Shown here: one piece after another, positions 11,001-29,144 of the stretch
Layout of the letters: every line of letters begins with the position of its first letter
Numbering within the stretch: the stretch's first letter is position 1
IMG/VR virus record: IMGVR_UViG_3300017734_000051
Coordinates: 1-29,869 of that record
Direction: 5' to 3' (one strand)
Origin: a virus
DNA: 29,869 nucleotides
Notes under the pieces: generated by a model
Database searches by the model: none
The model's input: only the letters and a program-made list of their open reading frames with translations
Told to the model about the DNA's origin: nothing
Made by a program: the position numbers and the translations under genes

Positions 11001-14000
11001 TTAGATATTCTGCATTTGATTTAAAATTCTTTACTGATAAAGAATTGACTCATGAATTTTTATCATCAGAAAAAACTGGAGATTTTAGTATAAGTAAAAC
11101 TGATAGATTGGGTGTAGATTTAACTGCTACAGTAAAATTAAATTATGATACCCATTTTCCAGAGAAACTTTACTATATTTTACAACCACTAAAGAACGCA
11201 CAAGTTCCAGTATCATACTCATTAAGTTCTTTGGATACTGATAACTCTAATATTATTGAGTTTGTTAATAGTTCAATTTCTGGTAATTATAATGTAAGAA
11301 AACCGACAGACACAACATTCTCATATAGACTATTTGATGAACCAGATTCGGATAGTTATGTTTCTGGACTCTCTACAATATCATATTCAACAATTTCAAC
11401 GACTGCTTCTGGTCCAATTAATGAGGTATCATTTATATCTCAAGGATCAAACTTAATAAAACTTCCATTGATTGAAAAGGTGGAATCTGAGTCTGGTGTT
11501 GATTCGATTATTTTTCCAAGAACAAATAGTATTGGTGCTGCTAAAAATATTAAAATCAATGACATTGGATTTGACTTCCCTTCAGATACTACATTAAGAC
11601 CTAGAGCATATACACCTACAATCTATAAGATTGATCCATTAACGTCACTAGGACAAATAGATGTCCTTAAAAAGGGAACTAGATATACAATTTTGCCTGA
11701 TCTAGTTCTTATTGATGGTTATACAAATAAAATTGTTACTGATGTAGATTTACGTTATGTAAATGAAGATGGTTTTAGAGTTGATATTATTAAGAATACT
11801 AAAAATTTATATGATGTAGAACCAAGACTACTTCCAATTAATAATAGTAATGGATATAAGATAATAAGAATGTCTTATGATTCTGGAACTAAAGATGTTA
11901 CTGTTATTTTAGATGTTGTTGGATTTAGTACAGTAACTGATTGGCCTTTCCCTGTGGGATCTCAGTTTATGGTTGAGGGTGTAGTAACTAAATTTCCATC
12001 TACTGATGAAGGATACAATTCTGTAGATTATGACTATAAGAAACTATTTACTGTAAAAACTGCTGATCCAAATATTGGTGGTCAAGTACCATCATTTACA
12101 TATAGTATGGATGGTTTCGTTAAGACAACTTCTGGACCAGGAATATTTAATGATTTATTTACATCTGGTAGGATTATTCCCGAAAGTCTATTCCCAACAT
12201 TTAATGTAAATAGGATTGCTAACAAATACTTTGAGAATGAAATTATTACGAATGAAGTCTCTGAAGACTTAGTAGTTTCTTGGGATATTAAAAATGAATT
12301 ACTAAAAGTATTCACAAGTTTCCCAGAAAGATATCAAATTGGTGATGTTATTAGAGGAAAAACATCTGCATCAAGTGGAACTTTAACAGAAGTTGTGGGT
12401 ATTACTTCTCTTACTTACGAATTTGATTCTTCAAATTCTGATAGGTACAAACCATATGATAGAAGAGGTTATCTAAATGAAGAAACTCAAAGACTTCATG
12501 ATAGTGATTATTACCAATATTTTTCATATTCATTAAAATCGGAAGTAGGAATTAGTAGTTGGAAAGAACCAGTAGAATCTCTAGCACATCCTGGAGGATT
12601 TAAAAAGTTTAGTGAACTTCAATTAATTTCTGCCGATGACTCTCAACTTGGAATTAATAGTACTGGAATTCCTGCTGATCAAAATAATTCTGGTTTCTTG
12701 GGGATTTCAGAATTCACATCAAATTATGATTTAAACTGTGTTCATGATATTGACTTAGTAACGGAAAATAATATTCTCAATAAAGTTTCTGATGAAATTA
12801 GATTTAATTCATTGATCTTAGTTGATTATTTTGAATCTATTGGAAATAGAGTTCTTATTGTCGATGATGTAAGTGATCAATTTAATAGTAATCCAAGAGC
12901 AACTGCTTTTTCAACTGTAGACACTTTTAGTTTGAGAAGGTTTAGATCTAAAAAATATGTGATGTTCACTTCTAATAAGAAGTTCCCTGGTGAAAGGCAA
13001 ATGGTTATTGTGAACGTACTTCATAATAACATTTATGGATTTATATCACAATATGGTAGAGTTGAAACCAATAATGTTCATGGGTATTTTGATATTGGAG
13101 TATTTGAAGATAATGGGTTACTTCTATTCTACCCAATAGAATATAGATTCAGTGATTTTAATATTAGTGGGTATCAATATGCAATTTCAGATGCTATTAG
13201 TGGAGTTTCAACTCATTATATTGGTGGAAATAGTGATTCTATTGGATTTGCAGGAATTCAAACTGCACTACTACCTCAAGGGACATCAACTTCTACAAAA
13301 ATTGTAGGTATTGATTCTTCATATACATCCGCTAAGGTCCTAGTAACACTAGAAAGTTCTGATTTACAATATTATCAATATGATGAATTTAATATTGTTC
13401 ATGATGGGACAGATATTCATACTGTTGAGTTCTCAACATTAGCAACAGATAACTTTTCCAGTCAAGATGTTTCTCTTGGTATTGGAACATATCAATTTGA
13501 ATATAATGGAAACGACATTGAAGTTAAGTTGACACCTAATAGTGGATTGTCAACATACTATGATGTTTCTTCTACTGTTGTAGCAATTTCAAATACATCT
13601 AGAACTGCAATAGGATCTAGTTTGTTTAATACTACATTGACTACTGTTGGACTGGGAACAACAACATCCATTTCACCATTTGCTGGAGTTAATACTTCAA
13701 TTCAACTACTTGAGTTTGGTAAGTCATACAAAGGATTTAATGCTTATGTAAGTATTGAAGACATGACGAATAATATTGTTCAAATGTCTGAATTAGTCTT
13801 TACTCATAATGAAACTGACTCTTATATAACAGAATTTGGTAGAGTTAGTAATCGTGGAATTTTTGAAGACGTTGGACTAGGAACTTTCACGTCTTATGTT
13901 GATGGATCAACTGGAAAAGCAAGATTAGAATTTGTACCATATCCTGCAGATCCTGGATTTACTAGAGAAATTGAAGTTCGTTTGTTTACACATCAACTTC

Positions 14001-17000
14001 AACTAGTTGATCTTGGTATTTCAAATAATTTCTATAATTATGATAATGGTAAATTCTCTACTCTACATGGAACTTACACTGGGACAGAAAATGATATTAA
14101 GAGAAGTTTTGAACTAAGGCATCAGGGTGATTTAATTTTTGAAAGAACGTTTGATGCATCTTCATTGGGAACAACCGTATCTACAGATGAAAATGTTTTA
14201 ATCCTACCAAATCATTTCTTTGTTACTGGTGAACTTATCAATTATACAGTTCCAAATGATGATGATGTTAGAGTTGGTATTGCTACAACTACTATTGCTG
14301 GAATTGGAAGTACTGATAAACTACCAACTAGTTTATATGTCGTAAAAATTAACGATAGTAAGATTAAATTTGCCGTCACCGCAGAGGATGCTCTCAAGTT
14401 CAATCCAGAAACACTCACTCTGAATAATGTTGGTGTTGGAACTTTACACAAAATTACTGCAACTAATAAAGATGCTAAGGGTATCTTTACAATTGATAAT
14501 ATGATGCAATCACCAGTTGTTGGATTAGCAATCACAACATCTGTTTCTGAAGATATTGATTTATCCTTCACATTGATCAATACCGCAGGAATTACTTCAT
14601 TCTTTGCCTATGACGTTATTCAAATTGATGATGAAATAATGTTGATTGAAACTGTCGGTGTTGGAACTCAGGATAAAATTAGAGTCAGAAGACCTTGGTT
14701 AGGAACTGAACTTGGCATTCACACTGCTGGTGCATTAGTAACTAAACTGAAGGGTGATTATAAGATTCTTGGTTCCACAATTAACTTCACATCTGCACCA
14801 TATGGAAAAGTTCCTGTAACAGTAGATGTAAACCAATTTGGAGTTCCATTCGTTGATCCTTCTGATAGAGACTTTACTGGTATTACAACTAACTCATACT
14901 TCCATGGAAGAACCTTTATGAGATCTGGCATTATTGATGAGACTGCAGAGACATATACCAACAATTACATTTTTGATGATATTTCTACCAAGTTTACTGG
15001 TATTAGAACTTCATTCGATATGACTTCTAACGGTCAAGATGTGGTTGGTCTTTCCACCGATAATGCTATTGTTCTTGTTAAGGATATCTTCCAACAACCA
15101 ACAAGACCTGGTGTATCTTCAATTTCAGGAAACTATGAGTTCGTAGAAACTGGTGGAAAAACTAAGATTCTATTTGATGGATCTATTTCTTCTGACGATT
15201 TCACTGCAGCAGATGGTCAAGATATTAACGTCCCCAATTTACCTGTTGGTGGTGTGATTGTAAGTATTGGATCTACTACTGGTCTTGGTTATCAACCTTT
15301 AGTTGCTGCAGGTGCTACTGCAACAATCTCTGGACTTGGATCTATTACTGCTGTTAGTATTGCCAACAGTGGATCTGGATATAGACCTGGTATTCAAACT
15401 CACATCAATGTAATTGCACAGACCTCATCTGATATTTCAATTATTGGTTATGCAACTGCTCTAAATGGTCATATCACTGGAGTTGCAATTACTAATGCAG
15501 GTACTGCATATACAAGCACAAATCCACCACTAATTAGATTCGATTCACCATTAAGTTATACTAATATTCCTTTATTATATTCTAGTGATTCTCCAACCGA
15601 AGGTATTGGAAGAACTGCATCTATTGATATGTTTGTTAGTAGAGATACTAGTATTGGTGAATTTAAGTTCAACAATAATGGATATGCCTATGGTCAAGGT
15701 GAAATATTAACTGTTGCAATTGGAGGAACTACTGGTATTCCTACCGATACATCTAAGACATTTGATGAATTCCAAATCACTGTCAATAGAACTCATAGTG
15801 ATGAATTTAATTCTTGGTCACTTGGACAACTTCAACAATTGGATAGTCTAGATGATCAATTTGATGGATTTAGAAGAGTATTCCCAATTTCTTTCCAAGG
15901 TGATAGATTATCAATCAGAGCAAGACCTGGTAGTCAAATTGATGTATCCGCAACACTAATGATCTTTATTAATGATGTTCTACAAGTTCCTAATCAAGCA
16001 TATACCTTCAAGGGTGGTAGTTTGCTTATATTTGCCGAACCAATTCCTGAGGAATATACTTCCAGAATTATTTTCTATAGAGGAACCAGAGATGTTGACG
16101 TTGAAGAGGTTGATATCGTAGAACCTATTGAGGTTGGAGATAAAGTTAAAATTATGTCTGATGTTGCGTTCCAAACTGAGAATAAGAGAACTGTAGAAGA
16201 CATTCTAGCCTCTGATATTATACTTACAAATCCATATAGTGGTATTGGAAGATTAAATGATGAAACAATTGAAAGACCATTGATGGCATGTAAGCAGACA
16301 GAAGATATCTTTATTAATGGTGAATATGTAGGAAAAAATAGAAGATTGTATGAACCATACATTTTCCCAACAACAAATCTAATTCAACCAGTTGGTGTTG
16401 ATACTACGGTTGCTTGGGTTGAAGCAGTGACTACATTCTTTGATAATACTAAAGAAAATCTAGCAGAAAAGAAACTTGGTCAAATTCAAATTATTTCTCA
16501 AGATGAAACAAGAACTGGAATTGTAAGTGCTACTGTTTCTGGTCTAGGATCTGTTACTAACCTCACAATTGCAAATGCTGGTATTGGTTACACCTTTATA
16601 CCACAAATCTCAGTTGGACCACCGTCATCTGGTGGCACTCAAGCAACTGCAACTTGTACGATTTCTAATGGAGCTATCAATACTGTAACAATTATAAACA
16701 ATGGTATTGGATATACTGGGACTCAAGTACCATCTGTGAACGTTGAACCACCAAGAGTATACATTGAACCCATCAGACAGGTAGAATATGATGGTGATTA
16801 TGGAACTATTGTTTCTGCTGCAAATACAACTATTGGTGCTGGTTTAACTGCAGTAGAACTAAGTCTATACATTCCACCAGATTCTTTCATTAGAGATATT
16901 GGAATTAATCCAGGAGGAATTACAACTGAAGGTATTACTGGTCTAGTAACAAGTTACTATTTTACTGCTTCTAGAACTAATATTGGTTCTGGCATCACTG

Positions 17001-17413
17001 CATTATATAATGATGGAAATACACTTAGTATTTCTACTGATAAGTTCAATAATATCTTCCAAGTTTATGATATTGATAGAATTACAGAATCTGTTCCAGG
17101 AATTGGTACTACTGCTGTTGTTAAGGTTACTACTTTAACAGCAGGTCCTCTTGGACTTTCACAAGATCTTGCTACATTTGATAATGATCTGGAAACTTGG
17201 GATTCAACTGAGTTAACTTTTGATATTGTTGATCAAGAATTTGCTTACTTTGGAAACTTCTCTTGGGGAAGAATTAATTGGCACCCAACCAGAAGTAGAA
17301 AACAACCTTTAGAGTTTACTTCTTACCATAAAAATGCTTTTGCTGGCATTTCAACTTCACCATTCGTTCGTAGAACGTTCCATCTTAGAAGTAAACTATA
17401 TACCCAATATTGA
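5042..17413 (+). CDS. 7: Giant gp7-like baseplate wedge protein with YHYH domain, 4123 aa
   Basis: This is probably the wedge initiator gp7, greatly enlarged (T4 gp7 is about 1030 aa). Support: it lies directly after gp6 and before gp8, the N-terminus (MDIRRIRLSQVLENQIPDFI, then FPLFKDFLRQYQE) is the cyanophage gp7 type, and the C-terminus carries FGNFSWGRINWHPTRSRKQP. A YHYH domain lies around residues 1260-1390: YSHCYAPRKLRQTIY, HSPILGWAYDGNPIYGPYGF (from H1299) and a C-terminal FNGRFCVTPDYPNGVYCYF. The rest is beta modules: NHGF..GE..Y..YYV units (at least five), nGGsGY units (eight here), IDDEI units, and three related ~75-residue domains at about 2635-2968. No membrane segments or catalytic motifs are evident. 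It is uninterrupted over 12.4 kb. The gp7 name rests on position and the N- and YHYH-domain resemblance rather than on alignment. Confidence 0.8.
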   Translation: MDIRRIRLSQVLENQIPDFINDEFPLFKDFLRQYQESNEIPGASYDLLSNIDKYVNLDNILLTPRSTTLRVTGTSDRLNYEDDVINVDSTSGFPYSFGLLSLGNVGEDDYEIVTYTSKTETEFKGVIRGFSGITEIGDELTFSSSLVGEHFDGTTVINLSALFLDEFFKKLKSQIAPGFEERILNYDVNERLFYKHVGDFYRSKGTKNSFEILFRALYNKSVDVIIPSDYIFEPSSSSNRKTRDLVLYSDDQTTDFTDLILHRTLKQPEIDAISDPDEITAYGTITNVERIERNGIRYYIVSLDGDYDKDITVDGTVFGQFVTTATTKVIEDFVGVNDVWPEFLHVDSTLSFQDSGSIDVYNVVNNEFIVEELSYSGKTVNELFEISDVEFDIPRGTLLSSRRYAYVDISDEETYYFRVTQVLSGIKPDQSSYFEVNDPVKFNTLGLKEETTKYNNWTSNATATYNISNLELLSSTNRTYRCNVDGNFDLTTFDKFFLIDNNNKSYNVFVSARESVDEYILTSESLIDLTPPKSFTIERKLNKANFTFFSEANNYVSDVQNIYRPDSFSDEMYIAASSLPNYSNSPLSTNDKRIAFTVNIANDLTSNKEIKIGQDGTPTVAEINHSFYTGDSIIYSEEDENNRLNTFDGDGNLIQLPNGRYYVTVVNTKTIKLSTSLNRVYTKDYLSVTGNVTDAVFYYSDFFDIEKVLNISEPFVLKSKRLVKKIIKPIDQSNPTETIPGKIGIFKNGVELLNYKSKNNIYYGGVESVEILSGGEDYDIINPPTLEFFDGENADGVNTGGIGATGNFVIEGSIRELKVLGGGYNYVNNPTIKVTGGNGSLCDVSPVMETYTHGVTIDSSSGFNVGISTDTIITLEDHLFSPGERVIYNCELNDQEIGGLKNKSIYYIGINDNTSFKLHNSEVDAKNNINSIDLTEFGEGFHKFDAVNKKKRLSALNVNYSSDDFTYRNVSYDPSIVSSPIDFYTNTINLPNHGFNNGELITYNSTTTPIAGLSSGTDYYISKVDSNNFKLSSIGIGTLPKDYYFNQRTFAELTTNGVGRQYFRYPNIEINVTSSSSDVESIQPQILPIVRGKITEVFLEGHGVGYGCTNIFNYERQPTITAEPGKLASVRPFIIDGEIKSVIVQNSGQKYVSTPSVQIFTDGNGFGAELIPIIADDGRLEDVIVKNGGADYNDSTEIEVVSAGVGAKFKAKIIRWNVNEVERAINSNQIYDDDGFLHQDSTISIREANEYGLIQYSHCYAPRKLRQTIYNKKVINGRTTFNPDLVLDTLNRETESTLHSPILGWAYDGNPIYGPYGFTNSDGSGGVKRMQSGYKKRSIASRPSVTIYPLGFFCNDYEWFSDGDLDTFNGRFCVTPDYPNGVYCYFTTIGNNDSSFKNFKLPEYPYVIGERFKSKPIEFNFDSSINQSSFFSDESDLTNENYKTSGLLRNISPQNSSTEFGSYKYLFNPTSVIDIDSKVKSVSFGKVDNILVFSGGKDFKVGDRVIFSESSGNSKRPLAKVASIGGTNVSSVSIATSTITNVEIISNPQTGNVVAICSGPHDQYTGPGRIDDLSSGNEIGTELVAVNRDLELSGIGTGIVIDVPSVTGIVTYVNVFGLDSTQNVIKIIPNDIYKIKYGNFEEQVKILNIEFENSRLRVQREVNGTIGTSYPVGTALSEYTRKFLIDNYLESGSRFNTQYYFDPRESIGLGIGSTLDIFNPGAGSTSRFVAGDRIYIPNNTLQVNDKIYYDYTSGPVEVESFGDNFDLVKDRPYYAYPFPNGFVGVSSRPVGVGSTGPVGLGSVTELLTFTSHGLGDNHSFFTRYDDVKRVDITTYEATFTTSQKHNLIFDDEITTECRPNIEQTLQVFYNEENNKFAIGKFDFVHDDINPKFNTITINNHRLQDGQTLILESITPPGGLLDDGVYKVSVVSKNTIKLLEPNNGGIANITNQSTGRLLVINPPIKLVRDKTLVFDVSDFSLSYVRNNIRYSAFDLKFFTDKELTHEFLSSEKTGDFSISKTDRLGVDLTATVKLNYDTHFPEKLYYILQPLKNAQVPVSYSLSSLDTDNSNIIEFVNSSISGNYNVRKPTDTTFSYRLFDEPDSDSYVSGLSTISYSTISTTASGPINEVSFISQGSNLIKLPLIEKVESESGVDSIIFPRTNSIGAAKNIKINDIGFDFPSDTTLRPRAYTPTIYKIDPLTSLGQIDVLKKGTRYTILPDLVLIDGYTNKIVTDVDLRYVNEDGFRVDIIKNTKNLYDVEPRLLPINNSNGYKIIRMSYDSGTKDVTVILDVVGFSTVTDWPFPVGSQFMVEGVVTKFPSTDEGYNSVDYDYKKLFTVKTADPNIGGQVPSFTYSMDGFVKTTSGPGIFNDLFTSGRIIPESLFPTFNVNRIANKYFENEIITNEVSEDLVVSWDIKNELLKVFTSFPERYQIGDVIRGKTSASSGTLTEVVGITSLTYEFDSSNSDRYKPYDRRGYLNEETQRLHDSDYYQYFSYSLKSEVGISSWKEPVESLAHPGGFKKFSELQLISADDSQLGINSTGIPADQNNSGFLGISEFTSNYDLNCVHDIDLVTENNILNKVSDEIRFNSLILVDYFESIGNRVLIVDDVSDQFNSNPRATAFSTVDTFSLRRFRSKKYVMFTSNKKFPGERQMVIVNVLHNNIYGFISQYGRVETNNVHGYFDIGVFEDNGLLLFYPIEYRFSDFNISGYQYAISDAISGVSTHYIGGNSDSIGFAGIQTALLPQGTSTSTKIVGIDSSYTSAKVLVTLESSDLQYYQYDEFNIVHDGTDIHTVEFSTLATDNFSSQDVSLGIGTYQFEYNGNDIEVKLTPNSGLSTYYDVSSTVVAISNTSRTAIGSSLFNTTLTTVGLGTTTSISPFAGVNTSIQLLEFGKSYKGFNAYVSIEDMTNNIVQMSELVFTHNETDSYITEFGRVSNRGIFEDVGLGTFTSYVDGSTGKARLEFVPYPADPGFTREIEVRLFTHQLQLVDLGISNNFYNYDNGKFSTLHGTYTGTENDIKRSFELRHQGDLIFERTFDASSLGTTVSTDENVLILPNHFFVTGELINYTVPNDDDVRVGIATTTIAGIGSTDKLPTSLYVVKINDSKIKFAVTAEDALKFNPETLTLNNVGVGTLHKITATNKDAKGIFTIDNMMQSPVVGLAITTSVSEDIDLSFTLINTAGITSFFAYDVIQIDDEIMLIETVGVGTQDKIRVRRPWLGTELGIHTAGALVTKLKGDYKILGSTINFTSAPYGKVPVTVDVNQFGVPFVDPSDRDFTGITTNSYFHGRTFMRSGIIDETAETYTNNYIFDDISTKFTGIRTSFDMTSNGQDVVGLSTDNAIVLVKDIFQQPTRPGVSSISGNYEFVETGGKTKILFDGSISSDDFTAADGQDINVPNLPVGGVIVSIGSTTGLGYQPLVAAGATATISGLGSITAVSIANSGSGYRPGIQTHINVIAQTSSDISIIGYATALNGHITGVAITNAGTAYTSTNPPLIRFDSPLSYTNIPLLYSSDSPTEGIGRTASIDMFVSRDTSIGEFKFNNNGYAYGQGEILTVAIGGTTGIPTDTSKTFDEFQITVNRTHSDEFNSWSLGQLQQLDSLDDQFDGFRRVFPISFQGDRLSIRARPGSQIDVSATLMIFINDVLQVPNQAYTFKGGSLLIFAEPIPEEYTSRIIFYRGTRDVDVEEVDIVEPIEVGDKVKIMSDVAFQTENKRTVEDILASDIILTNPYSGIGRLNDETIERPLMACKQTEDIFINGEYVGKNRRLYEPYIFPTTNLIQPVGVDTTVAWVEAVTTFFDNTKENLAEKKLGQIQIISQDETRTGIVSATVSGLGSVTNLTIANAGIGYTFIPQISVGPPSSGGTQATATCTISNGAINTVTIINNGIGYTGTQVPSVNVEPPRVYIEPIRQVEYDGDYGTIVSAANTTIGAGLTAVELSLYIPPDSFIRDIGINPGGITTEGITGLVTSYYFTASRTNIGSGITALYNDGNTLSISTDKFNNIFQVYDIDRITESVPGIGTTAVVKVTTLTAGPLGLSQDLATFDNDLETWDSTELTFDIVDQEFAYFGNFSWGRINWHPTRSRKQPLEFTSYHKNAFAGISTSPFVRRTFHLRSKLYTQY
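6905..14370 (+). repeat. Recurring 'NHGF..GE..Y / YYV..V...FKL' modules in gp7
   Basis: A degenerate protein module recurs at about 6905-7075 (INHSFYTGDSIIY ... RYYVTVVNTKTIKLS), 7650-7800 (EDHLFSPGERVIY ... IYYIGINDNTSFKLH), 8009-8136 (LPNHGFNNGELITY ... DYYISKVDSNNFKLS), 10727-10855 (INNHRLQDGQTLIL ... GVYKVSVVSKNTIKLL) and 14199-14370 (LPNHFFVTGELINY ... LYVVKINDSKIKF). Spacing between the two halves varies. They look like small beta units strung along the protein. The span given covers interspersed unrelated sequence. Confidence 0.65.
7339..16718 (+). repeat. Paired 'v.i.nGGsGY....P.v.i' modules in gp7
   Basis: Short beta modules occur in pairs: 7339-7380 and 7488-7520 (LSGGEDY, LGGGYNY), 8460-8497 and 8581-8620 (NSGQKY, NGGADY), 15343-15387 and 15480-15518 (NSGSGY, NAGTAY), 16553-16594 and 16678-16718 (NAGIGY, NNGIGY). 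Each is followed by a Pro-x-Val/Ile segment, and the two members of a pair are separated by about 95-150 bases. The span covers interspersed sequence. Related copies exist in gp8 and in the 2599-aa protein. Confidence 0.7.
12945..13950 (+). repeat. Three related ~75-residue domains inside gp7
   Basis: Segments at about 12945-13170, 13317-13550 and 13719-13950 share a pattern: a strand with K-(Y/V)-x-V, then ...Q...(V/I)-V-H-(N/D), then an aromatic with (Y/F)-G-R-V or E-F, then a Gly-x-Gly-T-(Y/F) or equivalent turn, and a final hydrophobic strand ending near Pro (LLLFYPIEY, VKLTPN, LEFVPYP). The second and third are the most alike (FNIVHDGTDIHTVEF against LVFTHNETDSYITEF). They appear to be duplicated beta domains; the family is not one I can name. 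Confidence 0.5.
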
Positions 17414-17423
17414 TATTGATAAA

Positions 17424-17975
17424 ATGAGACTACCATTGGTTATATTACATGATTTTGCAAAAATCGGTGAAAGTGATAGAAAACTTATGATTGATGATGT
17501 TCTTTCAAGTAGAAGGCAGCATTTAATTAGAGATTCAAGTGCATATAAATCAAATAACCCAATAGACATAGATCAAACTGGGTTATTTTCTATTTTGTAT
17601 GCAAAGTTTGCTGAAAAATCGGAAGAGTTGTTTGGTAACTTAAATTATGAATCAGATAATAGTGACAAATGTTGGGCATTTTGCACAAATAATGAATATT
17701 GGGCATTTAATCCACATATTCATGATTGCACTATCAATTCTGTATATTACTTGAATGTCCCAAAACATAATGGTCATGAATGTGGACCAATTATGTTTAC
17801 GGATGATCAAGATTCTGGGAAATGGATATCTTATCAACCAAAAAACGATGATTTAATTATTTTTCCTGGGAATCTTTATCATGATCCAAATTTTGTTCCG
17901 ACTGATGAATGGAGAATTTCTGTAAACATGGAAATTCGTTGCAAGAACAATATTAAATGGTCTGCTTATAAATAA
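17424..17975 (+). CDS. 2OG-Fe(II) oxygenase family protein, 183 aa
   Basis: The protein resembles the small 2-oxoglutarate/Fe(II)-dependent dioxygenases found in many cyanophage virion clusters (2OG-FeII_5 type). The double-stranded beta-helix signature is visible: HIHDCTINSVYYLNVP (98-113) supplies the first metal ligands, IIFPGNLYHDPNF (145-157) gives the distal histidine H153, and WRISVNME (163-170) gives R164, expected to bind the 2OG carboxylate. The frame is open from 17334, inside gp7, but ATG at 17424 is chosen: it falls 10 bases after the gp7 stop and removes an unconserved 30-residue extension. The substrate is unknown; relatives hydroxylate amino-acid side chains, often proline. 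Its position between gp7 and a tail fibre suggests a virion-protein substrate, but that is inference. Confidence 0.75.
   Translation: MRLPLVILHDFAKIGESDRKLMIDDVLSSRRQHLIRDSSAYKSNNPIDIDQTGLFSILYAKFAEKSEELFGNLNYESDNSDKCWAFCTNNEYWAFNPHIHDCTINSVYYLNVPKHNGHECGPIMFTDDQDSGKWISYQPKNDDLIIFPGNLYHDPNFVPTDEWRISVNMEIRCKNNIKWSAYK
17967..17974 (+). promoter_or_regulatory. T4-type late promoter box TATAAATA
   Basis: An exact match to the T4 late promoter consensus TATAAATA overlaps the last sense codons and stop of the oxygenase (tat-aaa-taa) and lies 23 bases before the fibre ATG at 17998. T4-like phages use this box with gp55/gp33-type sigma factors, so late transcription of the fibre gene is expected. 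Confidence 0.75.
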
Positions 17976-19769: not shown

Positions 19770-21338
19770 ATGTCTGCAATCGTAACAGATCAACTTAGAA
19801 TATTGAATGCAAAGAATTTCATTGGTGAAATTACTTCTGTTAACAATAACTATTATACATTCGTTGGATTAACAAATCCAAATGAATATCTAAGTAGTTG
19901 GGATGAAGATCCTCCTGCCCCAAAAGATAATTTTGATCAAGAAAATCATAATTGGGATACTATTATTGGCTTGAAGAAAGTTGATACTAATAATGTAAGA
20001 TATGCTTTGAAAAAGAATACTTGGACATCAGGTATTACTTATGATATGTATAGGCACGATATCAATCGTGACAATGTATCACAACCATCACTGGCAACTA
20101 GCTTATACTCTGCTAATTTCTATGTTGTAAACAGAGATTTTAAAGTTTATGCCTGTTTACAGAATGGAACAGATCCAGAAAATCCAAATGGTAGACCGTC
20201 TTTGGACGAACCAACCTTTATTGACTTAGAACCAAGAAGTGCTGGAACTAGTGGTGATGGATATATTTGGAAATATCTCTTTACTATCAATCCAAATGAT
20301 ATTGTTAAATTTGATACTTTAAATTATATCACAGTTGCGACTGATTGGGATACTGCAGACGAATATCAATCAGTAAGATTAAATTCAGCAAATAGTGGTC
20401 AGTTAAAAATTGCTACGGTAAAAACTAGAGGTGTTGATGTAGGATCACCAAACCAAGTATATACTTGCGATATTGTTGGTGATGGTACTGGTGGAGAAGC
20501 AACAATTGTAGTGGATAACCAATCAAAAGTTGATTCTGTTACCATTTCAAATGGTGGATCTGGATATACATATGCACGTATTGATTTAACAACTGGAAAT
20601 TTCCCAACTAGTTCTACAACTACCCCAACTTTTGATGTCATTATTCCACCAAAAGGTGGTCATGGTGCTGATATCTATAGAGAACTTGGTTGTACAAAAG
20701 TCTTAATTTATTCTCAAATCAAAAATGATGCGACGAATCCAGACTTTATTGTTGGAAACAGAGTTTCAAGAATTGGCATCATTGCAAATCCAGAAGAATT
20801 TAATTCTACAGAATCACTTCAAAAAAATCAGGCAAGTGCTTTATATGCATTAAAACTAACTGGTGTTAATGCGTCAACTGATTATATTAATGCCACATTT
20901 GATGCAAATGCAACTATTACACAAACTGTTTCTGCTGGATCAACTGCAATTGGTAGAGTTGTTTCTTACAACAAAAATACTGGAGTTCTAAAGTATTGGC
21001 AAGACAGAATTTCTCATGGATTTAATTATGATCTAGATAATACCGATGGAACTGGAACTTATGGAAATACTTTAATTCATTTTACTGCAACTCCAGGAAC
21101 TGGTGGAACATTAAATATTACTGGTTCTAATCAAGATCTTAAGATTGACACTACATTTAGTGATGATAAATTCGTCATAAATAACCTAAGTTACTATCTT
21201 GGACAGTCATTCACAGATGGTGTTTCTACACCAGAAGTGAAAAAATACTCGGGAGATTTGGTTTATGTTGATAATAGACCATCTATTACAAGGTCTGAAA
21301 ACCAAAGAGAAGATATCAAAATCGTATTGCAGTTCTAA
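19770..21338 (+). CDS. 8: Baseplate wedge subunit gp8
   Basis: This 522-aa protein has the gp8 N-terminus (MSAIVTDQLRILNAKNFIGE, then NNNYYTFVG) and conserved blocks such as WTSGITYDMYRHDIN, NFYVVNRDFKVYACL and GDGYIWKYLFTINP, as in T4 gp8 (334 aa). The C-terminal half is longer than in T4 and includes an NGGSGY module near residues 253-267 and a conserved end (YSGDLVYVDNRPSITRSENQ). gp8 dimers bind gp7 and gp6 in each wedge. It is preceded by two late-type boxes and is followed six bases later by the 2599-aa protein, so those two genes are probably expressed together. Confidence 0.92.
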   Translation: MSAIVTDQLRILNAKNFIGEITSVNNNYYTFVGLTNPNEYLSSWDEDPPAPKDNFDQENHNWDTIIGLKKVDTNNVRYALKKNTWTSGITYDMYRHDINRDNVSQPSLATSLYSANFYVVNRDFKVYACLQNGTDPENPNGRPSLDEPTFIDLEPRSAGTSGDGYIWKYLFTINPNDIVKFDTLNYITVATDWDTADEYQSVRLNSANSGQLKIATVKTRGVDVGSPNQVYTCDIVGDGTGGEATIVVDNQSKVDSVTISNGGSGYTYARIDLTTGNFPTSSTTTPTFDVIIPPKGGHGADIYRELGCTKVLIYSQIKNDATNPDFIVGNRVSRIGIIANPEEFNSTESLQKNQASALYALKLTGVNASTDYINATFDANATITQTVSAGSTAIGRVVSYNKNTGVLKYWQDRISHGFNYDLDNTDGTGTYGNTLIHFTATPGTGGTLNITGSNQDLKIDTTFSDDKFVINNLSYYLGQSFTDGVSTPEVKKYSGDLVYVDNRPSITRSENQREDIKIVLQF

Positions 21339-21344
21339 AGAATT

Positions 21345-24300
21345 ATGCCACAACTAACCAATCTAAACACCTTTCCGTACTTCGACGATTTTGATGAGTC
21401 AAATAACTTTCATAAGGTGCTGTTCAAACCTGGACAACCTGTCCAGGCTAGAGAACTTACAACTCTACAGAGCATTATTCAAAATCAAGTAGAGCAGTTT
21501 GGCAATCATGTATTTAAAGAAGGGTCTGTAGTAATTCCTGGATCTTTAGTTGTATCTGCAGATCAGATTTCTTTAGAACTTGCGAGAACTTTTAATGGAT
21601 TAGATATAACTCAATATCTAAGTTCATTAGTTGGAAAGATTATTGTTGGTGCAGATAGTGGTGTAAAGGCAAAAGTTGAGGGATATCAGAATACACATAT
21701 AATTGTTAGTTTGATTGAGGGTGGTACAGATAATGAACAGCAAGAATTTGAAGTAGACGAAGATATTTTTGTACAGGAATCTATTCCTTTAACTGATGCT
21801 GAAATCACTAGTTTTTCTGCAGGTTCTTCAGTAGCAACAGTAAAGCAATTTGATGAAGGGTGTATTGCAAAAATTACGGAAGGTGTTTTCTTTTTAAGAG
21901 GATACTTTGTTAAAGTTTCAGAGCAGTTTTTAATTGTATCTACAACAGAACCAGAACCATCATTTACATTAGGTTTTGAAGTTGAAGAAGATTTTATTTC
22001 TTCTTATGATGATGAATCACTTTATGATAATTCACAAGGATTTGTTAACTTTGCTGCTCCTGGTGCTGATAGATTAAAAATCTCAGCAAAAATGTCTGCG
22101 ATTATTGATGGTGATGAAATTCCACAGAATTTTGTCGAACTGGCTAAGATTGTAAATGGATCAATTGCTTCTTCAAAAGTAGAAAATCCTGAATATAATG
22201 TTCTTGGGGATGAACTGGCAAGAAGAACATTTGATGAAAGTGGCAATTATTATGTAAAACCATTTACTCTAGAAGTAAAAAATAGTCTACAAGACTTTAA
22301 AGGAAGTAATGGAATATATGCAGAAAATGAAACTACACAGTCTGGTGAAACACCTAGAGATGATCTAGCAGTATATCAACTTTCTGCTGGTAAGGCATAT
22401 GTTCAGGGATATGAAGTAAATATTCCTTCTGGAGCCTCATTAGATATATTAAAGCCAAGAACTACAAAAGAATTTAAGTCTCAGGCAGTAGAATATGCAA
22501 CTGGTTCTACATTAAGACTTAATAATGTATATGGTGCTCCAAAGATTGGATTATCAACAACATATACTATTTCTCTTAGAAGTGAGAGAGTTGGAGCAGC
22601 AGCAACAATTGCGGCAGGTAAAGAAATTGGTCTAGCTAGAGTATATGATTATGCTCTAGAAACTGGATCTTATGATGCTGCAAATCCTCTCACCAATTCG
22701 TGGGATTTGACACTGTTTGATGTTGTTTCATTCACAGATCTAAATCTAAATCAAAATCTAACATCACAACAAATACCAACATTCATTAAGGGTAAGTCAA
22801 GTGGTGCTGTTGGTTATTTAAGGTATGAGGCAACAAATACTGGTATTATTACTGCGTATAATGTAACGGGTAACTTCACTAAAGGTGAAGAACTAATCTT
22901 TAATGGTGAAGATAGTGATAGAATTGTTTTATCTTCAACAAACTATGGTATTTCCAATATCAAGTCAATTCATGGTGAAATTGGAATTACTACATTCTCA
23001 GGTGATGTAAGACAGACTTCTGTATTAGAACTAGGTGCGTGTACATTTAGTGGTGGTGGAGTCACTGTAGAACAAGCAGATAGAGAGTTTACAAAGGATT
23101 TTGTTGTAGGTGATTTAATTTCATTCAAAAAGTCTGGTGATACTCTATCTACACTTAATAGAGTTACAGTAGTAACTACTGATAATCTAACTGTTGAAGC
23201 AATCCAAGCAGTATCAGGTGTCCACAATGGAGCACTATTTGGTAATGGTGAAGTTAATGTTACTAAGGTAACTACACAATTGGGTGACAATGGATCAGAT
23301 ACACTCTATACTCCACTACCCAAAGAAAACGTAGCAAATGTAGTTTTAACAAACTCTTCAATTACCATCAGAAAAACTTTTAATGAACCAATTGTTGCTG
23401 ATGCTACTGGTGGAAGATTAACGATTCTTCCTGCTGATTTGGAAACTGGTGAGACATTTTTACCCTTTGATGAAGAAAGATATATTGTTGTAAATTCTGA
23501 TGGTCAAACAGAAGCACTAACTGAAGATAAAATTACAATTACAAGTGGAAGTAGAGAGTTAATTATTAAAGGTCTAAGTGTCCTTGGTTCTGCAACTGTA
23601 GTTGCTACGTTAAAGAAAAATAGCATAAAAGCACAGAATAAGATTAGAAATAGAGTCAAAACTATTCTTGTCGATAAATCATCCTTAGAAGGATCTGGTG
23701 TTGGTGCGACAACCTTAAATGATGGTTTAACTTATGGTAACTACCCATATGGAACTAGAGTTCAGGACAATGAAATTTGCTTATTAGAACCAGATGTCAC
23801 TAAAATTCATGCGATTTATGAATCATCTACAACTGGAACACCACAATTACCAAGACTTACTTTAAGTGATGTCAGTAGTTTTAATGGAAGTGTTGAAGAT
23901 GCTCTAAACGGTGAAGAAATTATTGGTAGTGAGAGTAATTGTGTTGCTGTTTTAGTTAATAAAGTAACTTCATCAACTGCTGAAGTAGTTTATGTTAATG
24001 GTAAGAAATTTAATATTGGTGAAGAAATTACATTCAAAGAATCTTCAATTACTGCAACTATCAGTCTAGTTGTTGATGGTGATAATGATATTACATCAAA
24101 ATATACTTTCAACAACTCAACAAAATCAACAATTTATGATTATTCTAGAATTGCTAGAAAGGAAAATACAAAACCACCTACAAAAAAAGTAACTGTTGTA
24201 TATGAATATGCAAGTATTGATAGTTCTGATACTGGAACTTTAGTAACTGCAAATTCATATGAAAATTTTGATTATTCAAATATTTCAACAATTAATGGTT

Positions 24301-27300
24301 TAAGACAAAGTGATATTATTGATATCAGACCGAAAGTTAAAACATATTCAGTATCTGAAGGTGTTAGATCTCCTTTTGAATTCTTGGGAAGATCTTTCGA
24401 TTCATCTCAAAATAACAATCTAAATGTATTGGCATCAGATGAGTCAGTTGAACTTGATTATTCAATATACTTAGGTAGAATTGATAGAATTTATCTAGAC
24501 AAATCAAAATCATTCCAAGTTGTTCAAGGAACACCAGAAGAAAGTCCAGAGGCACCAGTTCCTCTTGACAATTCAATGGAGGTTGCCGTAGTAACATATC
24601 CTCCATATTTGACTGATGTGAGTGATGCAAAAATATCTTTGCTAGATCATAAAAGATATAGAATGCAAGATATTGCATTACTGGAAAAGAGAATTGCAAA
24701 TCTTGAATATTATACACAACTATCTCTTTTAGAAACAAATACTGCTAACCTAGAAATTAAAGACTCTGACGGAGCAACAAGATTTAAGTCTGGTTTTTAT
24801 GTTGATAATTTTACATCGACAACAAACCAGATTAAACTTGGTGCTAAGAATGCTATTGATCCAGAGAATAATGAACTAAGACCTTCTTCTTACACCACTG
24901 AACTTGATTTACTGTTAGGTTCAACTGCTTCCACAGGAATCAATGGAGTTGTTGATCCCACATCTGATATACGTTTTGCTCAAGACCTTATTGGTGAAAA
25001 TATTAGAAGGTCTACTATAGATCCAAATGGAAGTGCTGGAACAGATGGTATGGGTGTTATAACCCTAGACTATGAAGAACTTGTAGAAGAAGAGCAACTA
25101 ACTGCAACAAGAGTTGTAAATGCCGCACCATACTTCGTTGATTTTTACACTGGTCAAGTAACACTCAATCCATCTTCAGATATTTGGATTGAGCAAGCAA
25201 GAATTGAAACTCAAACTATTGAAGGATTACTTGGTGGAATTACCCAGACTAATATTACAGCAACTCCTGCAGATCTAGATCCTCAAGCAGGTTGGTCTCC
25301 AACATTGTGGGGTGGATGGAATAAAAATTGGACTGGTAGAACAACTACCAGAAGAACAGTAACTGGAACTGATCGACAAACTTTACCTGGTGGAAGAGGA
25401 ACAAGAGCAGGTAGTGTTACTGCACGTTCTTCTGCAACTGTACAAACCGTCACTAGAACAGGAACTGCAACTCAACAAGGTTTCTCTCAAAGAATACAAA
25501 CAGTACCAGGAAATAATATTAGTCTTGGTGACAAACTTGTATCATCTGATGTTTCTTCCTTTATGAGAGCAAGAAATATCGAAATTATTACAAAAGGTAT
25601 GAAACCTCATACCAGATTATATGCATTCTTTGGTTCAACACGTGTAACTAATTACTGTGTTCCAAAACTTCTTGAAATTGAAATGATTTCTGGAACATTT
25701 AATGTTGGTGAAACAGTTGTTTCTGGTGGAGCAAACTCACTAAGACCAGGTGTAACTCAAGATCTACCATACATTTCTTTCAGAGTTGCCGATTCTCACC
25801 ATAGAACTGGACCATATAATGATCCTCAAGATGTTTATACAGTAAATCCTTACACACGTGAGGAGATGCCTGATCTATATTCCACAACATCAACCATTTT
25901 GAATGTCGATTTGGCATCAATGGCTCTAGCACCATCTGGTGAATATTTTGGATATATTTCCGAGGGCATGATCCTCCAAGGTAGAAATAGTGGTGCAAGA
26001 GCAAGAATTACAACTCAAAGACTTACTAGTGATAATGTTGGAATGATGCAAGCATCTTTCTATATTCCTAATCCAAATGCTGCAGGAGCACCTAAGTTTA
26101 GAGTCGGAAATGTTACATTAAAAGTTGGTGATGCAGATACATTAGATCCTATTGAAGGTGTTTCATATACTGGTGGTGAAAAAGACTTCTTCTCACAAGG
26201 AACAATTAATAATGTTCAAGGTCAAGTAATTTCCACAAGAAATGCTGAAGTTGTTAATGCATATACTCAACAATCTAGACCTATTAGAAGGACTCGTGAA
26301 ACTCTTGTCGATATGAGCATCGATGTTGATGTTACTCTTCCACAACCAGTACCAATTCCACGTCCACAACCACAACCAAGACCTCAGCCACGTCCTAGAC
26401 CACAACCAAGACCAACACCTAATCCATCACCAAGACCTAGACCTAGACCTGTACCAAACCCAACACCCAATCCACGTCCAGCTCCTAGACCTAGACCAAA
26501 TCCACGTCCAAGACCTCAGCCACGTCCTAGACCTAGACCTAGACCTCAACCACGTCCAAGACCAAGACCTAGACCAAGGCCACGTCCTAGACCAAGACCT
26601 AGACCTAGACCTAGACCAAGGCCACGTCCTAGACGCAGACCAAGACCTAGACCAAGGCGTCGTAGAAGAAGAAGAGATCCTATTGCACAGTCTTTCATGA
26701 TTGGTAGTCAGGCAGATCCTACAGGAATCTTTGCAACATCTGTTGATCTGTTCTTTAGAACAACTTCAACAACGGGACAAACGTGTTTTGTTGAATTGAG
26801 ACCTATGGTGAATGGTATTCCTTCAGCAGAAACTATCTACCCAATGTCTCAAGTTATTCTAACGGGTGAGCAAGTTCAAGTTTCTGAAGATGCGAGTGTG
26901 CCGACGACGATAACATTCCCAGCACCAGTTTATCTGGAAGGAAATAAAGAGCATTGTGTTGTTGTTGGATCTAATGCTACAGACTTCACATTATGGGTTT
27001 CTAGACTGGGAGAAGTTGATGTTGCATCATTAGCACTACCTGAGTCACAGCAAATTCCAATTACCAAGCAGTCATCTCTTGGTTCTATGTTCAAGTCTCA
27101 GAATGGTTCCACTTGGACTCCAAGTCAGTATGAAGACCTCAAGTTTAGATTAAATAGAGCAAACTTTATCTCTGAAGGAAATGTTAGTTTCTTCAATCCA
27201 GATCTATCTTCTGGAAATAGACAAGTAGCAACACTAAAGAAAGATTCACTAGAAATGAATTCTAGAAGAATCATCGTTGGACTTGGAACAACTGCTAGAA

Positions 27301-29144
27301 GTTGGGGTAGTGATATTGTTGCGGGAAACACTGTTATCCAAGACAACTCAAATGCATCTGGCAACTTTGTGATGGGTCTTGGCATTGCTACTGGCACGAT
27401 GGCAGTAACCAATGCAGGTCTCGGACTCACACCTTCTAGTGGATTCTTCCAATATAACAATGTCCCACTAACCAAACTAACTGGTAGAGGTGAAAATGCA
27501 ACTGCAAATATCCATATAAACAATGGTGTTGCAGCTGGTGCCACAATCTCAGATGGTGGTAATGGATTCAAAGTTGGTGATGTTCTAACTGCTACTATTG
27601 GTGGTGGAGTTGGTAGAAATCTACAACTTTCAATAACTGGTACTTATGGTATTAGTGAACTTATTCTCGATCAGGTTCAGGGTAACTTCATCGTTGGTGG
27701 TGGAAATACTTTGAGATACATCAATTCTAGTGGTGTAACTACCGAATTCACTGATCAAGGATCTACAGATATTCTAACCTCACCAAGAATAGTAACCGAT
27801 GGATTACATATTAAGGTTAACCATCTAAACCATGGTATGCACTCAGATACAAATAATGTTGTTGTTGATGGTGTTTCTTCTGATATTCCTGTCGTAAGAC
27901 TAGAAGGTGATTATCTACTCAGTTCAACAGATGATCTTATTGTTTCAAATGCTTCTGACTTTGAGAACTTTGAAGGTGTTGGTGTTGGAACCACAAACCC
28001 AGGTTACGTTAAAATTGAAGATGAAATTATTTCCTATACTTCAGTAATTGGTAATAGTCTTGGTGGTATTATAAGACGTGTTGACTCCACATTCGGTGGT
28101 GCATATGAGGATCAATCTATTGTTGAAAAATATGAGGTTGCTGGTATTTCTCTCAGGAGAATCAACAAGTCTCACTCACTACAAGATGCAACTATCACCG
28201 AGGATATTGGTCTAGATCATTATACTTTGAAGGTTGATACTTCATCGGATGGTATTGATAGATCATCTTCAACATCATTCCCAGCACTATACTCAAATGA
28301 GTCCAAGTCTACTGGTGGTGAGAGTGCAACTGCTACACAGAATATTCATTATGAAATCATGAAACCTATTGTTCAGTCAATAGTTCTACAAAAAACTAAT
28401 TTGACTTCAAGAGTAAGAACAGTTACTTCAACTAGCATTGGTGGTAATGAGGTTTCATTCTTAGATTCTGGTTATCAATCAATTAATCTAGAAGATGATA
28501 ATTATTTCGATACACCACGAATGATTGCATCTAAAGCAAATGCTGATGCTTTACTAACAACACTTCCAGGAAATAGATCATTTGAACTTGAACTCAATAT
28601 GACTTCATTTGATCCCAGACTATCACCAGTGGTTGACTTGGATAGAATTGGTTCTATCTTTGTTTCCAATAGAATTAATAGTGTAGTTACTGATTTTGTA
28701 ACTGATCCACGTGTAGCAACTGTTCAGGATGATCCTAGTGCATTCCTATATGCAACTAAACCAATTGGTTTAGAAATTCCAGCAACTAATATTAAGTTGA
28801 TGTGTTCTGCATATATTAATAACTTCTCCGATATTAGAGCATTTTATGCATTGACTAATGATCCATCAGAATCATTGATTTATTATCCATTCCCAGGTTA
28901 TGATAACTTACTAGAAAGTGGTCAAGTAATTGATCCTGCTAAGAACAGTGGTAGATCTGATAAGTTGGTTGTACCAACAGATAATAAAGGATTCCAATCC
29001 ACATCACTAACATTTAAGGATTACTCCTTTACTATTGAAAATCTACCGTCATTCAAGTTCTTCAGTATAAAACTAGTTGGAACATCAACCAACCAATGCT
29101 ACCCACCAAGAGTTCGTGACCTAAGAGCAATCGCATTCGCATAA
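21345..29144 (+). CDS. Giant baseplate/fibre structural protein, DUF4815-type, 2599 aa
   Basis: The N-terminus (FPYFDDFDESNNFHKVLFKPGQPVQARELTTLQ pattern, residues 9-41) marks the DUF4815-type domain of cyanophage fibre and baseplate proteins. In order, one sees a long beta-rich region; a coiled-coil-like DIALLEKRIANLEYYTQ (about 1106-1122); a Thr/Arg-rich stretch near 1330-1385; MRARNIEIITKGMKPHTRLY (from 1407); the Pro/Arg tract (1666-1777); then DPIAQSFMIG (from 1778) with a conserved block ending near FTLWVSRLGEVD; an NGG-type module pair (about 2019-2076); an IEDEIISY module (about 2221-2228); and a conserved C-terminus. By position it replaces gp9/gp10 of T4 and probably anchors or forms fibres, but the exact role is unproven. 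It follows gp8 by six bases. Confidence 0.85.
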   Translation: MPQLTNLNTFPYFDDFDESNNFHKVLFKPGQPVQARELTTLQSIIQNQVEQFGNHVFKEGSVVIPGSLVVSADQISLELARTFNGLDITQYLSSLVGKIIVGADSGVKAKVEGYQNTHIIVSLIEGGTDNEQQEFEVDEDIFVQESIPLTDAEITSFSAGSSVATVKQFDEGCIAKITEGVFFLRGYFVKVSEQFLIVSTTEPEPSFTLGFEVEEDFISSYDDESLYDNSQGFVNFAAPGADRLKISAKMSAIIDGDEIPQNFVELAKIVNGSIASSKVENPEYNVLGDELARRTFDESGNYYVKPFTLEVKNSLQDFKGSNGIYAENETTQSGETPRDDLAVYQLSAGKAYVQGYEVNIPSGASLDILKPRTTKEFKSQAVEYATGSTLRLNNVYGAPKIGLSTTYTISLRSERVGAAATIAAGKEIGLARVYDYALETGSYDAANPLTNSWDLTLFDVVSFTDLNLNQNLTSQQIPTFIKGKSSGAVGYLRYEATNTGIITAYNVTGNFTKGEELIFNGEDSDRIVLSSTNYGISNIKSIHGEIGITTFSGDVRQTSVLELGACTFSGGGVTVEQADREFTKDFVVGDLISFKKSGDTLSTLNRVTVVTTDNLTVEAIQAVSGVHNGALFGNGEVNVTKVTTQLGDNGSDTLYTPLPKENVANVVLTNSSITIRKTFNEPIVADATGGRLTILPADLETGETFLPFDEERYIVVNSDGQTEALTEDKITITSGSRELIIKGLSVLGSATVVATLKKNSIKAQNKIRNRVKTILVDKSSLEGSGVGATTLNDGLTYGNYPYGTRVQDNEICLLEPDVTKIHAIYESSTTGTPQLPRLTLSDVSSFNGSVEDALNGEEIIGSESNCVAVLVNKVTSSTAEVVYVNGKKFNIGEEITFKESSITATISLVVDGDNDITSKYTFNNSTKSTIYDYSRIARKENTKPPTKKVTVVYEYASIDSSDTGTLVTANSYENFDYSNISTINGLRQSDIIDIRPKVKTYSVSEGVRSPFEFLGRSFDSSQNNNLNVLASDESVELDYSIYLGRIDRIYLDKSKSFQVVQGTPEESPEAPVPLDNSMEVAVVTYPPYLTDVSDAKISLLDHKRYRMQDIALLEKRIANLEYYTQLSLLETNTANLEIKDSDGATRFKSGFYVDNFTSTTNQIKLGAKNAIDPENNELRPSSYTTELDLLLGSTASTGINGVVDPTSDIRFAQDLIGENIRRSTIDPNGSAGTDGMGVITLDYEELVEEEQLTATRVVNAAPYFVDFYTGQVTLNPSSDIWIEQARIETQTIEGLLGGITQTNITATPADLDPQAGWSPTLWGGWNKNWTGRTTTRRTVTGTDRQTLPGGRGTRAGSVTARSSATVQTVTRTGTATQQGFSQRIQTVPGNNISLGDKLVSSDVSSFMRARNIEIITKGMKPHTRLYAFFGSTRVTNYCVPKLLEIEMISGTFNVGETVVSGGANSLRPGVTQDLPYISFRVADSHHRTGPYNDPQDVYTVNPYTREEMPDLYSTTSTILNVDLASMALAPSGEYFGYISEGMILQGRNSGARARITTQRLTSDNVGMMQASFYIPNPNAAGAPKFRVGNVTLKVGDADTLDPIEGVSYTGGEKDFFSQGTINNVQGQVISTRNAEVVNAYTQQSRPIRRTRETLVDMSIDVDVTLPQPVPIPRPQPQPRPQPRPRPQPRPTPNPSPRPRPRPVPNPTPNPRPAPRPRPNPRPRPQPRPRPRPRPQPRPRPRPRPRPRPRPRPRPRPRPRPRPRRRPRPRPRRRRRRRDPIAQSFMIGSQADPTGIFATSVDLFFRTTSTTGQTCFVELRPMVNGIPSAETIYPMSQVILTGEQVQVSEDASVPTTITFPAPVYLEGNKEHCVVVGSNATDFTLWVSRLGEVDVASLALPESQQIPITKQSSLGSMFKSQNGSTWTPSQYEDLKFRLNRANFISEGNVSFFNPDLSSGNRQVATLKKDSLEMNSRRIIVGLGTTARSWGSDIVAGNTVIQDNSNASGNFVMGLGIATGTMAVTNAGLGLTPSSGFFQYNNVPLTKLTGRGENATANIHINNGVAAGATISDGGNGFKVGDVLTATIGGGVGRNLQLSITGTYGISELILDQVQGNFIVGGGNTLRYINSSGVTTEFTDQGSTDILTSPRIVTDGLHIKVNHLNHGMHSDTNNVVVDGVSSDIPVVRLEGDYLLSSTDDLIVSNASDFENFEGVGVGTTNPGYVKIEDEIISYTSVIGNSLGGIIRRVDSTFGGAYEDQSIVEKYEVAGISLRRINKSHSLQDATITEDIGLDHYTLKVDTSSDGIDRSSSTSFPALYSNESKSTGGESATATQNIHYEIMKPIVQSIVLQKTNLTSRVRTVTSTSIGGNEVSFLDSGYQSINLEDDNYFDTPRMIASKANADALLTTLPGNRSFELELNMTSFDPRLSPVVDLDRIGSIFVSNRINSVVTDFVTDPRVATVQDDPSAFLYATKPIGLEIPATNIKLMCSAYINNFSDIRAFYALTNDPSESLIYYPFPGYDNLLESGQVIDPAKNSGRSDKLVVPTDNKGFQSTSLTFKDYSFTIENLPSFKFFSIKLVGTSTNQCYPPRVRDLRAIAFA
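26340..26675 (+). repeat. Pro-X / Pro-Arg tract (residues 1666-1777)
   Basis: Proline occupies every second residue for 48 consecutive dipeptides (26340-26627); the partner is Gln, Val, Ile, Arg, Thr, Asn, Ser or Ala at first, then increasingly Arg, and the last 13 dipeptides are all Pro-Arg. It ends PRRRPRPRPRRRRRRR just before DPIAQSF. Synonymous codons are mixed (CCA/CCT; AGA/CGT/AGG), and a 25-base DNA repeat occurs at 26568-26592 and 26610-26634, a 42-base period. Alternating proline favours an extended rod, and the arginines give a very high positive charge. Confidence 0.95.
27399..27572 (+). repeat. NGG-type module pair in the 2599-aa protein
   Basis: MAVTNAGLGLTPSSGFF and ATISDGGNGFKVGD form a pair like those in gp7, with the same beta-turn-Gly layout and about 100 bases between them. 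A single copy (DSVTISNGGSGY) also lies in gp8 at 20528-20570. Confidence 0.55.

Follow-up and report, generated by a model that had tools for sequence, protein, structure and literature searches.

A long alternating-proline tract as a probable stiff spacer in a DUF4815/VrlC-type phage baseplate protein

The DUF4815 domain is found in about 1,500 phage records. The closest described system is the DUF4815/VrlC family of baseplate proteins (PHROG 358), among them TmpG of kayviruses and the DUF4815 protein (ORF65) of Staphylococcus phage phi812 (PDB 9euf, 9eui and 9euj); the phi812 protein was resolved in pre- and post-contraction baseplates. In a study of pelagimyophages, VrlC appeared to replace T4 gp7 and was considered part of two-layered baseplates (PMC7029224), and a gp8 neighbourhood is common to the DUF4815/VrlC proteins of cyanophages. 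The protein reported here belongs to the same family and has the same two domains on either side of the junction considered below. However, the phi812-type proteins have 1,152 residues with these domains joined directly, whereas in our protein 112 residues rich in proline and arginine were inserted between them, followed by a C-terminal part of 822 residues.

A literature search yielded no paper describing proline-rich linkers in baseplates. Alternating prolines are known from other proteins. The X-Pro repeats of TonB are expected to adopt polyproline II and act as a long spacer (PMC12204202). The present tract resembles TonB in its long alternating-proline run of 49 successive every-second prolines; nevertheless, TonB is a periplasmic transducer with no homology to our protein, which is a virion protein without a TonB domain and whose 98 Pro-X residues run without a break, most of the partners being Arg. 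The P14 protein of chlorovirus PBCV-1 (PDB 6ncl) is also a virion protein with alternating-proline repeats, but virus and protein are unrelated to ours and the repeats are Pro-Ala and Pro-Lys. The modification of the present tract discussed below is hypothetical; the chlorovirus prolyl 4-hydroxylase, a virus-encoded 2OG oxygenase, offers a possible parallel for such a modifier. C9orf72 poly-PR and the Pro-Arg-rich antimicrobial peptides are free peptides that target ribosomes, with toxic or antimicrobial effect. They share the Pro-Arg alternation with the tract (PR20 in 7top), but the tract is an internal, spacer-like segment of a baseplate protein rather than a free peptide.

The window, i.e. 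the whole stretch of DNA analysed (29,869 nucleotides of the IMG/VR virus record IMGVR_UViG_3300017734_000051), encodes the tract protein of 2,599 residues on the + strand at 21345–29144. Residues 1–2599 matched positions 1–2055 of the 2056 of the PHROG 358 profile (E = 0). In the Pfam scan DUF4815 alone was found, with 183 bits against a gathering cut-off of 30, and the TonB C-terminal domain was absent. The gene lies directly 3' of that of baseplate wedge gp8 (19770–21338, + strand; PHROG 438, Pfam Phage-Gp8), and the baseplate module, which is of cyanophage type, was syntenic with that of Synechococcus phage S-SCSM1. The homologue in this phage is labelled 'virion protein' in its GenBank record; 45 virion proteins of S-SCSM1 were identified by mass spectrometry (PMC9602691). 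Because of the PHROG 358 and DUF4815 matches, the gp8 neighbourhood, the phi812 homologue and the VrlC literature, the tract protein is a baseplate protein and not a fibre. The preliminary description of this DNA, which spoke of a giant baseplate/fibre protein, thus held for the baseplate but not for the fibre. A baseplate wedge protein of 4,123 residues, encoded at 5042–17413, contained a YHYH domain (PF14240 in Pfam, E 2e-25).

The tract itself comprises residues 1666–1777 (112 residues; 26340–26675, + strand). Its translation contains 52 Pro and 42 Arg; collagen-like Gly at every third residue is absent, the tract having no Gly at all. In its strict Pro-X part (26340–26633, + strand; residues 1666–1762, 98 residues counting the partners) proline occupied 49 consecutive every-second positions, one dipeptide more than the 48 counted previously; when the entire protein, with the tract, was shuffled 500 times, no run of this kind exceeded 4. 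Of the 49 partners, 31 were Arg, 7 were Gln and 4 were Asn, the remainder being a few other residues. The gradient from mixed Pro-X to Pro-Arg noticed earlier was borne out, as Arg made up 9 of the first 24 partners but 22 of the last 25. After the strict part comes RRRPRPRPRRRRRRR, and the run of seven arginines was real in the translation. This Arg-rich end of the tract, RRPRPRPRRRRRRR (26634–26675, + strand), was not conserved: the S-SCSM1 counterpart ends with APRNDDD and that of relative L003 with LPWFRRR. In a survey of 102 phage proteomes, low-complexity regions had a mean length of 33 residues and a maximum of 115, with Arg under-represented (PMC6821194). The tract is therefore near the top length of the surveyed regions and odd in composition, yet it is a spacer within a known family.

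Several features would fit a neutral repeat expansion or an assembly artefact without function. The repeat looks hexanucleotide-like, the tract length varied from 102 to 138 residues among relatives, and IMG/VR contigs often contain short ORFs made of Pro-Arg repeats. A scan of viral contigs for the Pro-Arg DNA pattern returned mostly such short ORFs, unrelated to the tract protein; the relevant ones were only L110 and a copy of L003. However, the codons were mixed for both Pro (CCA 31, CCT 20, CCC 1) and Arg (AGA 28, CGT 10, AGG 3, CGC 1), and DNA periodicity at 6–48 bases was not above that of synonymous-codon shuffles (z from –1.4 to 1.5), which ruled out a simple microsatellite. In addition, an independent 153.8-kb IMG/VR contig (L230) carried an identical tract, Arg7 included, and the cultured phage S-SCSM1 carried a 114-residue version, so that the assembly artefact also considered in the preliminary description was excluded. 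A neutral origin is thus extremely improbable. A 125-codon ORF in another forward frame (26323–26700) covers the tract. It is open because the CCN-(A/C)GN codon pairs cannot yield stops in that frame; it was interrupted in L006, L014 and L016, and was rejected as a trivial by-product.

The independent copies also allowed selection on the tract to be assessed. L230 was 89.6% identical to the window in DNA over the gene and downstream stretch. Within the tract, all 14 of its 14 DNA differences were synonymous, while the 165 codons just upstream showed 40 synonymous and 20 amino-acid changes. Among 50,697 phage records, S-SCSM1 was the only one with close DNA similarity over the tract. In this comparison the 52 Pro positions had 23 synonymous and no amino-acid changes and the partner positions 13 changes in 60, while 23–31% of flanking codons changed their residue. 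An alignment of repeats may overstate conservation where the tract is pure Pro-Arg, but the mixed first 75 residues are safe in this respect. Taken together, these comparisons showed that the tract is real and selectively preserved. Since all Pro changes against S-SCSM1 were synonymous and the Arg end differed in S-SCSM1 and L003, the alternating Pro is maintained, this clade favours Arg, and the run of Arg at the end is a local feature.

The earlier claim that the tract lies between two folded domains agreed with the AlphaFold2 models, in which beta domains folded on both sides and the tract was unstructured. The N-terminal beta domain (about residues 1406–1637; 25560–26255, + strand) could be aligned in relatives whether or not they carry the tract, and the N-side model had pLDDT values mostly of 70–93 over about segment residues 10–180. 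The part past the spacer (822 residues; 26676–29141, + strand) was modelled as several beta domains with a mean pLDDT of 82.6 and matched the phi812 baseplate protein in Foldseek; in 43 relatives read to the stop codon, the post-junction part had 816–835 residues. Directly C-terminal of the tract is a domain with the motif DP(L/I/V)AQSF (26676–27275, + strand). It matched the phi812 protein (9eui, 9euj and 9euf) with Foldseek E values of 8e-10 to 2e-8, and by sequence corresponded to residues 791–952 of that protein; the next match, to the lectin-like domain of Cwp84, was distant (E 8e-4). The three phi812 entries were the top three Foldseek matches of both models, with one domain fitting well and the remainder superposing poorly. 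The tract and linker had pLDDT values of about 25–50, meaning that the tract was not confidently folded and saying no more on its conformation.

In an alignment of 33 relatives the domains on either side were conserved, while gaps occurred all through the tract, and the homologues tolerated from about 5 to more than 200 residues at the junction. Pro-X with Arg was found in the window, S-SCSM1 and L003–L010. L014 had Pro-X with mostly neutral partners (5 Lys of 33) followed by a small insert containing Lys and Cys, and in L016 and L017 the Lys/Arg-Pro stretches were irregular and exceeded 200 residues. At the same junction of L054, Pro-X with Ser, Thr, Glu and Gly partners (35 every-second prolines, slightly acidic with a net charge of –2) was followed by a large Gly-rich domain. 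A poly-Pro spacer occurred in one 12-row clade and a Gly-rich spacer in L073. In L011, L013 and L229 the tract was replaced by a coiled coil, another kind of rod, with clean heptads (86% hydrophobic at a/d over 49 residues), followed by NVT repeats. Most relatives had short ordinary linkers, and the Staphylococcus and Bacillus phages had no linker, one domain passing directly into the other (...RTRVTVNLV-DPLAQSF). The preliminary description had regarded orthologues without the tract but with intact surrounding domains as speaking against the feature. Such orthologues were found in these phages and in the alignment, but they indicate a replaceable spacer rather than a spurious one.

In the tree of the DPLAQSF domain, the 12 Pro-X rows and the three coiled-coil rows formed one supported clade. 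The poly-Pro rows formed a clade, and L054 stood apart, distant from the main Pro-X clade; on this tree, Pro-X occurs at two separate places. NVT/NIT-like repeats were observed just before DPLAQ(S/T)F in L011, L013, L229, P-TIM68 (L214) and ACG-2014f (L206); these are possibly a beta-fibre type of stalk, placed after the heptad coiled coil in L011–L013. In S-PM2 (L202) the junction had diverged (SPLAQTF), and the domain after it contained a long additional stretch.

It seems probable that two domains of the DUF4815/VrlC protein are separated by the tract as a spacer of polyproline-II type, which would be stiff, extended and positively charged. Of the rigid charged spacer named previously, the spacer role was borne out by the common junction and by selection; the polyproline-II form and the rigidity are suggested by the sequence. 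Because relatives carry Arg, Lys or neutral to acidic partners, the shared property would be the alternating-Pro rod rather than Arg, and because coiled coil, poly-Pro and Pro-X share this place, a rod rather than a ligand seems to be wanted at the junction. On the other hand, most relatives have short linkers, which shows that there is no general need for a long rod. Polyproline II is also a common recognition form, and both the Pro and the X pattern were strongly conserved over the first 75 residues, as would be expected if the tract were not a free rod but a linear ligand docking with another virion protein or a chaperone. Yet unrelated sequences, a coiled coil among them, can occupy the site while the neighbouring genes remain syntenic, and no candidate binding domain was found among the annotated proteins of the window. 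Docking is therefore quite improbable.

The charge itself might be the function: a polycationic tract could attach to anionic LPS or polysaccharide on the surface of the cell, aiding adsorption or triggering the baseplate. The tract has 42 Arg in 112 residues, L230 kept every Arg through its synonymous differences, the long tracts of the clade were nearly all net positive (+5 to +60), and the domain after the tract has the distant lectin-like match. However, the Pro-X tract of L054 is slightly negative and that of L014 nearly neutral, coiled coils stand in place of the tract in L011, L013 and L229, and S-SCSM1 has NDDD where the window has Arg7. Furthermore, S-MbCM25 and S-CAM8, which have the same recorded host as S-SCSM1 (WH7803), have short linkers and no tract, so the tract is not needed to infect WH7803. 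Charge is thus secondary, and the anchor to anionic polysaccharide or LPS proposed in the preliminary description was not supported as the main role; we consider this reading unlikely, although there is room for a charge role, given that Arg is completely conserved in L230 and that almost every clade member is positively charged. The DNA contact proposed alongside it, in which the Arg-rich tract would touch the phage genome or RNA, fared no better as a main role. Poly-PR peptides do bind nucleic acids and ribosomes, but the same composition arguments apply, and the homologue is a baseplate protein, presumably far from the packaged DNA. Such contact is highly unlikely.

As for the stiff spacer, the polyproline-II rise is 0.31 nm per residue, and full extension of the 98 Pro-X residues would give a length of about 30 nm. 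Such a rod would be long beside the S-SCSM1 tail, which is 11 nm wide (PMC9602691). It could hold the C-terminal half off the baseplate core as a stiff tether, and the tethered half might then gain access to partners or the cell surface and change its orientation as the baseplate rearranges. The Arg residues would keep the rod soluble and prevent its aggregation, their charge repulsion would hold it extended, and they may add a weak attraction to the surface. The junction, a hypervariable spacer site, is a defined hinge of a baseplate protein that is widespread. Here evolution swaps alternating Pro, poly-Pro, coiled coil and Gly-rich sequences while the flanks stay constant, which provides a natural series in which the importance of baseplate reach and stiffness can be examined.

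A separate and weaker hypothesis is that regular tracts are hydroxylated by a 2OG-Fe(II) oxygenase of the baseplate operon. The candidate modifier (17424–17975, + strand) is encoded between the genes of the 4,123-residue wedge protein and the connector; its ORF is open from 17334, and a start at Met31 matches the S-SCSM1 annotation. It matched PF13759 above the cut-off (E 9.6e-8), with 15.8 bits in the P4H-like family PF13640, below the cut-off of 27. The HIHD, the distal His and the Arg of WRIS were conserved among the four homologues aligned. By tblastn against the 50,697 phage records, a recognisable relative was found in S-SCSM1 only; this phage has 24 genes of the 2OG oxygenase superfamily in all, and the functions of cyanophage 2OG oxygenases were not specifically investigated (PMC9602691).

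The oxygenase gene, which is restricted to this phage group, was present at the locus in five of the five regular-tract populations covered (the window, S-SCSM1, L230/L296, L279 and L310/L311), which are related phages. The coiled-coil relative L013 had the same gene order (wedge, connector, gp8, VrlC) but no oxygenase, and none was found at the locus in Gly-rich, short poly-Pro and short-linker relatives whose contigs covered both sites. In the tract-less cultured cyanophages searched, no PF13759 gene was near VrlC, while nearly all had such genes elsewhere. None was found within the contig of L054, the distant phage with Ser/Glu Pro-X. L313 and L314, one population (99.5% identical over 5.6 kb), had an irregular Pro/Arg/Lys spacer without the oxygenase at the locus, by which a simple one-to-one link between enzyme and Pro-rich spacer was weakened. 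It is a tentative, rather doubtful proposal that the dedicated oxygenase hydroxylates Pro (or Arg/Lys) of its neighbour's Pro-X rod to give a hydroxylated, stiffened baseplate rod, the absence of the enzyme accompanying the coiled-coil replacement. If this link holds, it would provide a concrete substrate for one of the many cyanophage 2OG oxygenases.

Two further observations were made at the oxygenase position. In the coiled-coil relative L294 (reverse complement 14607–14642), the gap between wedge and connector genes was about 35 bases, exactly where tract-bearing phages encode the oxygenase. L299, whose contig covers the VrlC N-terminus but not the spacer, was of window type in this N-terminus, yet its oxygenase (L299:4672–5259) was of L312 type (83% identical to that of L312), which suggests an apparent exchange of this gene.
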